This document shows, piece after piece, positions 40,600 to 54,480 of a stretch of DNA of 64,000 nucleotides. The notes beneath the pieces are model-generated. The model was given only the letters and a program-made list of their open reading frames with translations. It was not told the DNA's origin and did not search any database. The stretch's first letter is position 1. Every line of letters starts with the position of its first letter. A program made the position numbers and the translations under genes. Source of the DNA: Euzebya tangerina (GTDB lineage Bacteria; Actinomycetota; Nitriliruptoria; Euzebyales; Euzebyaceae); NCBI RefSeq assembly GCF_003074135.1, contig NZ_PPDK01000001.1:3162001-3226000 (forward strand). Direction: 5' to 3'.

Positions 40600-40866
40600 G
40601 TGAACCAATCGAGCGAGGAGGCGGCGGGCGACGCCGAACAGCCATCCAGCCACGGCTTCGGGGGTAGCCCCGAGTGCCAGCTGTGCCCCATCTGCGTCGT
40701 CATGCAGGCCATCGGCGCCTCACGGCCCGACGTCACCGCCCACCTCCTGGCTGCAGCTCGCGAGCTGGCACTGGCCATCAAGTCCGTCGCCGAGGGGCAT
40801 GTTGAAGCTTCCGACCGCGCACAAGCCGTGATGAACGATAGGTTGACGCGGATCAACATCGACTAG
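40600..40866 (+). CDS. Small Cys-rich protein of unknown function
   Basis: An 88-residue protein with one tight cysteine set, ECQLCPICVV (C-x2-C-x2-C), near residue 26-32 and a following helix (AHLLAAARELALAIKSVAEGHV). Related short proteins with the same Cys set occur next to ArsA-like and ROK genes in other actinobacteria. A metal site is likely, but the function is unknown. The GTG follows TAGGCT. Confidence 0.65.
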   Translation: MNQSSEEAAGDAEQPSSHGFGGSPECQLCPICVVMQAIGASRPDVTAHLLAAARELALAIKSVAEGHVEASDRAQAVMNDRLTRINID

Positions 40867-50320: not shown

Positions 50321-52060
50321 ATGATCAGCGTCGCCCAACTCAGCTTCACCCATCCCGGTGACACCGGTGGGTTCGATGACGTGACGTTCGCCGTACCGCC
50401 CGGTGGGCACGCCGCGCTCATCGGCGACAACGGCGTCGGCAAGACCACCCTGCTGCGGATCCTGGCGGGCCAACTGCAGCCCGACGACGGCCAGGCCCAG
50501 GTCCAGGGGAGCATGCGGTACATGCCGCAGGAGGTCGGCTTCGAGGGGGACGCGGTGGCGGTGCAGGAGCTGCTGTGCCGCTTTGCGCCAGCGCCGTTGG
50601 ACCAGATCGGCATCGCCATGTTCGCCGCCGAGCGACGACTGGCCGCGGGTGATGACGAGGCGGGGTTCGAACTCGCCGAGCGCATGAGCGAGTGGGGTGA
50701 CCTGGGTGGTTACGAGCTGCAGGCCCTCTGGGATGCCGCGAGCCGCACCATCATCGGGACGGGCTTCGACGCGGTCGCCCAGCGCGATGCCACCACGCTG
50801 TCGGGTGGGGAGCGCAAGCGCCTGGTCCTCGAGGTGCTGCTGGGCTCACCGATCAAGACGCTGCTGCTGGACGAGCCGGACAACTACCTGGACATCCCGG
50901 CCAAGCGACGGCTGGAGCGCCAGCTGGCCGACAGCGACCAGACGATCCTGCTGGTCAGTCACGACCGCGAGCTGCTGTCGACGGCGCCGACTCGGCTCAT
51001 CACACTCGAGCCGGGCGGCGCGTGGATCCACCACGGCACCTACGCCGACTACGACGAGGCGCGGGAGGCGCGTCAGCAGTCCCTGGGTGATGAGCTGCGG
51101 CGCTGGCAGGACGAGGAGCGGCGCCTGTTCCGCTTCTACAAGACGATGAAGCAGCGGGCCGCCATCAGTGACGTCATGGCCTCCAAGGCCGATGCCGCCG
51201 AGACGCGGTGGAGGAAGTGGGTCGAGGCGGGGCCACCGCCACCGCCGGCTCCGGACCAGACGGTGTCGATGCAGCTGATGGGGAGCGGTTCCGGCAAGCG
51301 CATGCTGCGCCTGACCGGCCTGGCGATCCCCGGGCTGGTCCACCCCTTCTCCGACGAGATACACCATGGCGAACGGGTCGGCCTGATCGGTCCGAACGGA
51401 ACCGGCAAGACCCATCTCGTCCGGACGGTCGCCGCCGCGCGGCCTGCCGGGGAACTCGCCGCTGACCAGCCCTCGCATCAGGGCGAGGTGGTGCTCGGTG
51501 CCCGCGTCCGCGCTGGCTACTTCGCCCAGGTCACCACCAACCCCGCCATGTCGGGCAGCACACCCCTGGCTGTCGTCACCGATGCGACCGGTAACGAGCA
51601 GCGGAGCATGGCGGCGCTGGCACGGTATGGACTCACCCGGACCGCACGTCAGATCTACGAGACGCTCTCAGGCGGTCAGAAGGCCCGGCTGGAGATCCTG
51701 CTGCTCGAACTGTCCGGCGTGAACCTGCTGATCCTCGACGAGCCGACGGACAACCTGGATCTCGAGTCGTGCCGTGCGCTCGAGACGGCCCTGGACGGAT
51801 TCGACGGAGCCATCGTGGCGGTCTCGCACGACCGCACCTTCCTTCGTGGCATGAGCCGTCACCTGCACCTCGGTGAGGACGGGCGCGTCTTCGGCGTTGC
51901 GGACTTCGAGGCGGCGATGGCGGTTCTGATGGATGGGCTTGCAGCGGCGACCCACGGAGCCGTCGTGCCCCAAGTCGGGTTAGGGCTCGAGCGTCCCGCC
52001 GCTCAGTCGTCGTCATCGTCGTCGTCATCATCATCGTCAACAGCAGCTTCGGTGAAGTAG
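50321..52060 (+). CDS. Second ABC-F family ATPase with poly-Ser tail
   Basis: A 579-residue ABC-F protein. Cassette one: GDNGVGKTT, LSGGERKRL and LLLDEPDNYLD (DEPDN in place of DEPTN). Cassette two: GPNGTGKTH, LSGGQKARL and LILDEPTDNLD. A charged linker (RFYKTMKQRAAISDVMASKADAA) separates them. The last residues form an 11-Ser tract, encoded by a trinucleotide repeat that also codes an Asp tract in the convergent kinase. Without that repeat the protein would end near the usual ABC-F terminus. The function is likely ribosome-related; antibiotic protection is possible. Confidence 0.88.
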   Translation: MISVAQLSFTHPGDTGGFDDVTFAVPPGGHAALIGDNGVGKTTLLRILAGQLQPDDGQAQVQGSMRYMPQEVGFEGDAVAVQELLCRFAPAPLDQIGIAMFAAERRLAAGDDEAGFELAERMSEWGDLGGYELQALWDAASRTIIGTGFDAVAQRDATTLSGGERKRLVLEVLLGSPIKTLLLDEPDNYLDIPAKRRLERQLADSDQTILLVSHDRELLSTAPTRLITLEPGGAWIHHGTYADYDEAREARQQSLGDELRRWQDEERRLFRFYKTMKQRAAISDVMASKADAAETRWRKWVEAGPPPPPAPDQTVSMQLMGSGSGKRMLRLTGLAIPGLVHPFSDEIHHGERVGLIGPNGTGKTHLVRTVAAARPAGELAADQPSHQGEVVLGARVRAGYFAQVTTNPAMSGSTPLAVVTDATGNEQRSMAALARYGLTRTARQIYETLSGGQKARLEILLLELSGVNLLILDEPTDNLDLESCRALETALDGFDGAIVAVSHDRTFLRGMSRHLHLGEDGRVFGVADFEAAMAVLMDGLAAATHGAVVPQVGLGLERPAAQSSSSSSSSSSSTAASVK

Positions 52061-54096
52061 AAGATCTGGACGGTCGAGCCGCGCTGGATCGGCTCCCCGC
52101 GCTCGGGGACCGAGCCCTGCACCACGTTCGCCACCGTGACGGTGAACGGACCGAAGGTGCGCTGCTCCTCGGTGATCCGCTCGACCACGAGCCCGAGGGC
52201 CTCCAACTCCGCCGTGGCCTCGTCAGGGCTGAGTCCCCGCACGTCGGGTACCTCGATGGTCAACGGTCCCTGGGAGAACACCAGCGAGACCGGGCTGTTC
52301 TTGTCGACCTGCACCGCTGGATCCAGCGACTGACTGACCAGGAGCCCAGCTTCGGGGACCTCGTCGGAGAAGGTCGTGGTCACCTCGCCGAGCGTCAGCT
52401 GCGCCTCCGCGAGAAGTTGCTCCGATGCCTCCTGGGTCTGGCCGGCCAGGTCCGGCACGGTCACCTGTTCGATGCCGAGAGAGACGACCACGGAGACCGC
52501 GGAGCCCTGCTCGACGGGCAGTCCCTCCTCAGGGCTCTGGGAGATGATCTGTCCGGCAGGGACGGCGTCATCGAACGTCTCCGTCGGATCCTCGAGCACG
52601 AAGCTGTTGGCCTGGACCTCCGGCCCGATGTCCTCCACCGTCCGGCCTTCGAAGCTGGGCATGTCGACCACCAGTGGCCCGAGGGAGAGGGTGACGGCCA
52701 CGGTGTTGCCGGCCCGCAGCTCCCCGTCGCTCGGGTCCTGCGCGATCACCGAACCCGCGGGGGCATCCAGGCGGTTCTCCTCGCCCTGCACGCGATAGAG
52801 GAGTCCCAGGTCGCTCAGGCGCTGCTGTGCCTCGGTGCTGTCCATGCCCCGCAGGTCCGGCACCGCCGCGACCGGTGCAACCACCTGATCCCAGTACACG
52901 TAGCCGCCCCCGGCGCCCAGACCTGCCAGCAGGACCAGCCACAGGAGGACGACCAGCACCCGGCGTCCCGTCCGACGGCGGGGCGGCGGGGTGGTCGGGA
53001 CAGCCGCGGGGCGGACGGCCGTGGGCCTGGCGGGCGTGCTGATGCGCGTCGCGGTGCCAGGCTCCTCCCGCGGACCGCGTCGCTCCGCCAGATCGCGCTC
53101 GGCCCGTTCCTGCTCAGCGAGAGCCGTGGCGGTGATCGCCATCGTCTCGGAGGCCTCCGGCGGCAGGATCAGCGTGTGGATCGATCCGTCGTCCTGGGTG
53201 GTGGCCACCTCCTGCGCATCAGCTCCGACGGCGGCCAGCATCGCGGCCGCCATCGCCCGGACGGTCGGGTACCGGCGGGTCGGGTCGTGACGCGTGGCTC
53301 GCTCGATGACCGCGTCGAGCGCCGCGGGCACCTCGGGGGCGTAGCGACTGGGCGGCGGCACGGACTCCTTGGCATGGCGCAGGGCGATGGCCATCGGCGT
53401 GTCGCCGGTCAACGGCTTGCGGCCCGTCAGCAACTCGAAGGCCATCACGGCCAGCGCATACTGGTCGCTGGCCGGTGTGGCCTCGATGCCGCCGACGAGT
53501 TCCGGCGCCATGTAGTGGACGCTGCCGACCAGTGAGCCGGTCGCTGTGTGGCTGGTGGCGGCCATCACGCGGGCGATGCCGAAGTCGGCCAGCTTCGGGA
53601 TGCCCTCCGGGGTGATCAGGACGTTCTCGGGCTTGATGTCGCGGTGGACCAGCCCGCCGTCGTGTGCTGACTGCAGAGCGTCGGCCAGCGGCGGGATGAC
53701 CGCCAGCAGTTGCTCCGGCGAGAGTGGGCCGTGACGGCCGAGGACCTGGCGGAGGCTCGGACCGGCCACCATCTCCATCACGATGTAGGGGAGGTCCGAC
53801 TGGCCTTGGTCGAAGACAGCGACGATGTTGGGGTGGGTCAGGGACGCCGCGTGCCGCGCCTCGGCCTTGAACCGGCTCTGGATCTGTGGATCGCCGGCCA
53901 GATGCCGGTGCAGCACCTTGATGGCGACGTCGCGGTCCATCTGCCGATCCCGGGCGCTGACGATGGTGGCCATCCCGCCGGCGCCGATGCGCTTGCCGAC
54001 CAGGTATCGACCCGCCAGGATCCTCGAGCCGTCCGACGGCGCATCCGAGGCGGCCGGGCGGTCGGTGTCAGAGGTTTCCGGGACGGAGGTGCTCAC
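52003..54096 (-). CDS. pknB: PASTA-domain Ser/Thr kinase (PknB-like)
   Basis: A 697-residue membrane kinase. The kinase domain has GAGGMATIVSA, Lys60 (VAIKVL), HRDIKPEN with Asp153, DFG at Asp171 and MAPE. A Pro/Arg-rich juxtamembrane stretch leads to one helix (about 379-397). Outside are four PASTA repeats (about 411-681: VPDLRGM, MPSFEGRT, VPDLAGQT, VPDVRGLS), which sense peptidoglycan fragments in PknB. The protein ends in 11 consecutive Asp residues from a trinucleotide repeat. The GTG at 54096 follows TACACT; an in-frame start at 54141 would cross the divergent promoter. The usual division partners (pknA, pbpA) are not next to it. Confidence 0.92.
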   Translation of the reverse strand: MSTSVPETSDTDRPAASDAPSDGSRILAGRYLVGKRIGAGGMATIVSARDRQMDRDVAIKVLHRHLAGDPQIQSRFKAEARHAASLTHPNIVAVFDQGQSDLPYIVMEMVAGPSLRQVLGRHGPLSPEQLLAVIPPLADALQSAHDGGLVHRDIKPENVLITPEGIPKLADFGIARVMAATSHTATGSLVGSVHYMAPELVGGIEATPASDQYALAVMAFELLTGRKPLTGDTPMAIALRHAKESVPPPSRYAPEVPAALDAVIERATRHDPTRRYPTVRAMAAAMLAAVGADAQEVATTQDDGSIHTLILPPEASETMAITATALAEQERAERDLAERRGPREEPGTATRISTPARPTAVRPAAVPTTPPPRRRTGRRVLVVLLWLVLLAGLGAGGGYVYWDQVVAPVAAVPDLRGMDSTEAQQRLSDLGLLYRVQGEENRLDAPAGSVIAQDPSDGELRAGNTVAVTLSLGPLVVDMPSFEGRTVEDIGPEVQANSFVLEDPTETFDDAVPAGQIISQSPEEGLPVEQGSAVSVVVSLGIEQVTVPDLAGQTQEASEQLLAEAQLTLGEVTTTFSDEVPEAGLLVSQSLDPAVQVDKNSPVSLVFSQGPLTIEVPDVRGLSPDEATAELEALGLVVERITEEQRTFGPFTVTVANVVQGSVPERGEPIQRGSTVQIFYFTEAAVDDDDDDDDDDD
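52006..52038. repeat. Trinucleotide repeat read by two convergent genes
   Basis: Eleven tandem GTC/ATC triplets on the plus strand give 11 Asp codons at the end of the kinase (minus strand) and, offset by one frame on the other strand, 11 Ser codons in the ABC-F gene. The two genes overlap for 58 bp (52003-52060). Confidence 0.8.
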
Positions 54097-54104
54097 GCCG
54101 CGCC

Positions 54105-54114
54105 AGTGTAGGTT
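54105..54114. promoter_or_regulatory. Overlapping divergent -10 elements
   Basis: On the plus strand TAGGTT (54109-54114) ends six bases before the GTG at 54121. On the minus strand TACACT (54110-54105) ends eight bases before the GTG at 54096. The two hexamers share the TA at 54109-54110, so both start codons lie 25 bp apart with no other promoter space. Confidence 0.6.
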
Positions 54115-54120
54115 GGCCCG

Positions 54121-54480
54121 GTGGCATCTCCTGCTGACCAAGACGACATCGATCCGTTCTGGGAGGAGCTCGCCTCACTGGGATTCCAGCCGGTCCAGGC
54201 CGACCGGAAGGGGACGGTCCAGTACGCGCGACGGCCCAATCGCTTCCTGACCGAGTGGATCCACGACGACGGGGCTGAGCTGCTGTTCACCTGGGAGTTC
54301 GACCTGGGTGAGTTCTGCGAGAGCGTCGGCTGGCAGATCGGCGCGGCCGAGACGTCCTTCCAGATCCTCTTCCCGCAGTACGACGTGAAGATCGCCAGGG
54401 ACCTCGAGGCCGTCGCGGTCGAGGTCCAGCGGCTGGAGAACCAGATGCGCGGCCTCGATCTCTCCGATCCGTCGCTCTGA
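54121..54480 (+). CDS. Hypothetical YbjN-like small protein
   Basis: A 119-residue soluble protein I cannot place firmly. Its pattern (LASLGFQPVQADRKGTVQY, LLFTWEFDLGEFCESVGWQIGAA, VQRLENQMRGLDLS) is reminiscent of short sensory or chaperone-like YbjN domains, but this is weak. It has no membrane helix or metal motif. It starts 25 bp from the divergent PASTA kinase, so a functional link is possible. Confidence 0.55.
   Translation: MASPADQDDIDPFWEELASLGFQPVQADRKGTVQYARRPNRFLTEWIHDDGAELLFTWEFDLGEFCESVGWQIGAAETSFQILFPQYDVKIARDLEAVAVEVQRLENQMRGLDLSDPSL

Follow-up and report, generated by a model that had tools for sequence, protein, structure and literature searches.

Overlapping opposite-strand -10 boxes and a probable bidirectional promoter between a PASTA kinase gene and a conserved small gene in Euzebya tangerina

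Two divergent genes and the 24 bp between them

Within the 64,000-nucleotide stretch of Euzebya tangerina DNA that we analysed (the window), a PASTA Ser/Thr kinase gene on the minus strand (52003-54096, start GTG 54096-54094) and a 119-codon gene on the plus strand (54121-54480, start GTG 54121-54123) point away from each other, and their start codons are separated only by an intergenic gap of 24 bp (54097-54120, GCCGCGCCAGTGTAGGTTGGCCCG). The kinase is of the Stk1/PknB type, and its kinase domain and PASTA repeats both scored above the curated cut-off. Its reading frame stays open back to a TTG at 54141, and a kinase protein longer than the GTG-start form is formally possible. At its 3' end the kinase gene overlaps a convergent ABC-type ATPase gene on the plus strand by 58 bp (52003-52060), where the two strands of a single trinucleotide repeat (52006-52039) encode a poly-Ser tail and a poly-Asp tail.

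The small protein of 119 aa belongs to a highly conserved but unannotated family, marked by the motifs TEWxHDDG, FTWEFDLGEF and GWQIGAAE. Relatives were present in 52 of 61 related genomes, the named ones belonging to Egibacteraceae, Euzebyaceae and Nitriliruptorales, and in 26 of the 149 Actinomycetota genomes sampled. The family extends across Actinomycetota, and its gene frequently lies head to head with that of a kinase. Sequence searches of Pfam, NCBIfam and PDB returned nothing convincing, and a match to an Eph receptor (E 0.008) was dismissed as not credible. In the predicted model (mean pLDDT 78), helices and strands follow one another in an order resembling YbjN and type III secretion chaperones, but no structural match (Foldseek E > 0.3, VIA-align Z 4-5) rose above what the tool states to be noise.

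The gap holds two putative -10 boxes on opposite strands, TACACT of the kinase gene (54105-54110, minus strand) and TAGGTT of the small gene (54109-54114, plus strand), which have the TA at 54109-54110 in common and stand 8 nt and 6 nt, respectively, from their own start codons. The original prediction had placed the two elements, their overlap and both distances exactly as we found them. Overlapping opposite-strand -10 elements are a feature of prokaryotic bidirectional promoters, and each box is a TANNNT hexamer 6-9 nt ahead of a start codon, a position enriched above background as in leaderless genes. No GGAG, GAGG or AGGA precedes either start within the gap, which is too short for a Shine-Dalgarno sequence to fit. 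A -35 element of known type is likewise absent at both putative promoters; TANNNT promoters of actinobacteria usually lack one. An E. coli-type scan of 4.5 kb, a method blind to promoters consisting of TANNNT only, revealed neither TTGACA/TATAAT-type promoters nor terminators. TAGGTT is a weak box, with three of six matches to TATAAT, and its activity may be lower than that of the TATSCT found ahead of its orthologs.

Positional statistics and conservation of the boxes

TANNNT has only three fixed bases, so that two such short, degenerate hexamers could overlap by chance and have no promoter function. From 53900 to 54330, a region of 430 bp, the two boxes are the only occurrences of the motif on either strand. 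Over both strands of the G+C-rich window, 51 copies were observed against about 156 expected from a first-order Markov model, a roughly three-fold depletion that extends across the whole window, as if selection acted against spurious promoters. The overlapped form ANNNTANNNT occurs twice in the window, compared with 11 copies in dinucleotide shuffles; the second copy, at 40835, was rejected as a parallel case because divergent genes do not flank it.

A larger sample of the genome, consisting of the window and 20 spaced 20-kb stretches (464 kb, 404 called genes), contained 222 genes that are first in their transcription unit. A TANNNT preceded the start at a distance of 6, 7, 8 and 9 nt in 16, 11, 10 and 6 of these first genes, together 19%, and beyond 11 nt the count fell to about zero to one gene per position. 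The 6-nt and 8-nt gaps of the focal boxes both lie within this genome's own leaderless-promoter peak. Overlapping boxes were seen in only one of the 64 divergent pairs in the same sample, namely the focal pair.

Both boxes are held by a 13-bp sequence, AGTGTAGGTTGGC (54105-54117), that is identical in all four genus members analysed and forms the longest invariant run in their alignment (simulated P of an invariant run of at least 13, 0.00035). The spacing to the start codons is 6 nt on both sides in two of the species and 8 nt (kinase gene) and 6 nt (small gene) in the other two. TACACT is invariant in the genus and TASACT-like across the order, and TAGGTT, although weaker and different from the TATSCT of the orthologs, is also kept in 4/4 genus members. 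These differences leave room for a reading in which the kinase box alone works in the genus, TAGGTT being incidental and the small gene relying on a non-TANNNT promoter inside the kinase gene. We consider this quite improbable: TAGGTTGGC does not vary within the genus and always stands 6 nt from the start codon of the small gene, the flanking 430 bp offer no other TANNNT, and the gap leaves no room for a Shine-Dalgarno sequence.

Outside the genus, elsewhere in the order, the kinase gene and the small gene are still divergent, but their boxes are separate. Where both boxes were recognized, the gap was mostly 68-147 bp (226 in one genome), and each box stood 6-10 nt ahead of its own start. The kinase box reads TAGACT, TAAACT, TACACT or TAGAAT; that of the small gene is in most cases TATCCT, TATGCT or TACCCT. 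The divergent pair is therefore older than the overlap, whose simplest origin is a contraction of the gap in this genus. Two further families of the phylum also have members in which small gene and kinase gene lie head to head (loci L103-L106).

A further near-invariant element, CCTGCTGACC (54130-54139), lies inside the small gene, in codons 4-7. Its genus form, CCTGSTGACC, is kept in 4/4 members except for one G/C position, although adjacent codons have changed, and it uses two rare codons, CCT for Pro and GCT for Ala, which account for 5-8% and 8-10% of the codons for these amino acids. Because it falls at -32 to -41 relative to the predicted kinase start site, that is, in the -35 region, it may be a part of the kinase promoter written within the small gene; its function is uncertain and the position is suggestive only.

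Recurrence of putative back-to-back leaderless starts

The palindromic pattern CAY-N6-ANNNTANNNT-N6-RTG describes two leaderless starts whose boxes share the TA. It matched five places in the four genus genomes, and all five are the starts of real divergent genes: moaA-like/histidine kinase (two species), oxidoreductase/TfoX-like, and kinase/small gene (two species), as named from the protein sequences without searches. With spacings of 8 and 6 nt, the pattern found the focal site and a TatD-like/AbrB-like pair in this genome and three more sites in a sister species, all of them with coding sequence on both sides. Spacings of 7 and 6 nt were less specific; only two of the four matches in this genome, SURF1-like/hydrolase-like and DsbA-like/membrane-protein, were clear divergent gene pairs.

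Across 66 genomes of the class, gaps of 6 nt gave 49 sites, compared with 13 and 15 for control gaps of 3 nt and 12 nt. A reversed-pattern control gave 23 sites; we prefer the gap-shifted controls because reversal swaps TA for AT and alters the start-codon triplets. Clear coding sequence lay on both sides at no fewer than 12 of the 32 class loci fetched. Leaderless back-to-back geometry thus recurs in the class at unrelated gene pairs, though it is uncommon. Given this recurrence at true gene pairs, the depletion of TANNNT in the window, its positional peak before starts and the invariance of the boxes in the genus, an accidental overlap without promoter function is hardly credible.

Bidirectional promoters prefer start-site distances of 18, 10 and 23 bp (PMC12825309). 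The 18-bp class is the commonest; its leaderless counterpart, CAY-N5-TANNNTA-N5-RTG, had no match in the genus, and the 10-bp class could not be leaderless both ways because the start codon would then fall on the opposite box.

Two further observations came from the class matches. Three members of one genus (L059, L060 and L061) have the same overlapped leaderless start between genes for a ~420-aa protein and a predicted membrane protein of ~90 aa, so that the overlap is conserved at another locus as well. Several matches, including L056, L065, L067, L068 and L070, contain CGAAC-N4-GTTCG-like palindromes resembling LexA boxes, and one genome (G050) carries several near-identical copies.

A bolder generalization would be that a stereotyped module of 22-24 bp, two leaderless promoters on one TA, arose repeatedly in Nitriliruptoria and is held by selection as the joint transcription and translation start of two genes, at this locus coupling the PASTA kinase to a conserved pathway partner protein. 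We regard this as doubtful.

Proposed mechanism and comparison with known systems

The best explanation, which we hold to be very likely, is a bidirectional promoter of the 23-bp class from which both mRNAs would emerge leaderless or nearly so. The housekeeping sigma factor would read TANNNT in either orientation. Let x be the -12 position of the plus box: transcription from it would begin at x+12, and transcription from a minus box that also contains x and x+1 would begin at x-11, 23 bp away. TAGGTT would then drive polymerase rightwards from 54121, the first base of the GTG of the small gene, and TACACT leftwards either from 54096, on the kinase GTG, or from 54098, 2 nt ahead of it; judged by the box positions, the predicted divergent start sites are 23 bp apart, or 25 bp if both fall at the start codons. 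Given its 8-nt gap, the kinase mRNA may carry a 2-nt leader, whereas in the two species with 6 nt on either side the predicted start sites coincide with the start codons at a distance of exactly 23 bp. It is very probable that both mRNAs have no leader or almost none, since TANNNT peaks 6-9 nt before first genes and the 13-mer holding the boxes is invariant in the genus.

The original prediction further proposed that two polymerases could not bind at once and that the two genes may be expressed in competition; it overlooked the probable leaderless mRNAs, the membership of a described promoter class and the conservation. Its first half is sound on geometry, since with 2 bp shared by the two promoters at most one polymerase should occupy the site at a time. 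Competition in expression is unproven and would depend on activity: of five E. coli bidirectional promoters tested, each had too little basal activity for competition, whereas repression of the opposite direction followed when one was strongly activated (PMC12825309). By analogy, mutual exclusion would become measurable competition only with one direction strongly active.

The stronger form of this idea, a competitive switch in which the overlap of the boxes would keep the kinase gene and the small gene from being expressed together in normal life, one rising as the other falls, gains from the geometry that bars two bound polymerases, from the retention of the overlap in all four genus members and from the E. 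coli repression upon one-sided activation. Nevertheless, we judge it unlikely: besides the lack of basal competition in E. coli, neither box is near consensus, no -35 element or known activator site was seen, and in outgroups the same pair is served by separate boxes. Under the bidirectional promoter that we favour, ordinary activity would probably co-express both genes at a low level with little mutual effect, and repression of one gene by the other would require a regulator that greatly increases activity in one direction.

The locus offers a clean, conserved case of a very small control region serving two genes, and it lends itself to testing directly whether the overlap comes at a cost to expression or couples it. 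Because outgroups hold the same pair with separate boxes, it also suggests a route to a bidirectional promoter in which the gap between two ordinary promoters shrinks, and it points to an unannotated protein family that in several actinobacterial groups is encoded head to head with a kinase.

Among known systems, the closest are the prokaryotic bidirectional promoters described by Warman, Grainger and colleagues (Warman et al. 2021, as relayed in two subsequent papers from that group, PMC12825309, Warman et al. 2026, and PMC10268837), which likewise have overlapping opposite-strand -10 elements between divergent genes. They are defined by divergent start sites 7-25 bp apart (PMC10268837), and the 23-25 bp predicted here lie within that range, at or near the preferred 23 bp. 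The locus differs in that its mRNAs are predicted to be leaderless, in that -35 elements are absent and in its host lineage, Nitriliruptoria, where our search found no study of bidirectional promoters. With the leaderless promoters of Actinobacteria, for which two studies describe a TANNNT about 10-12 bp before the start as the mark of leaderless genes (PMC3160421; PMC3898074) and, in the M. tuberculosis leaderless-promoter peak, no -35 consensus (PMC3898074), it shares the TANNNT, the missing -35 element and the box-to-start gap of 6-8 nt, but it has two such promoters back to back with two bases in common. The closely juxtaposed divergent promoters of Mycobacterium tuberculosis also serve divergent leaderless genes, for example prpD and the regulator gene Rv1129c, whereas the available portion of that report contains no statement of shared -10 bases (PMC3898074). 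We read the locus as a compact, conserved instance of the bidirectional promoter, a class already described, rather than as a novel type of switch. Its leaderless twist, by which the same few bases would set the starts of both transcription and translation, appears to make it unusually compact.
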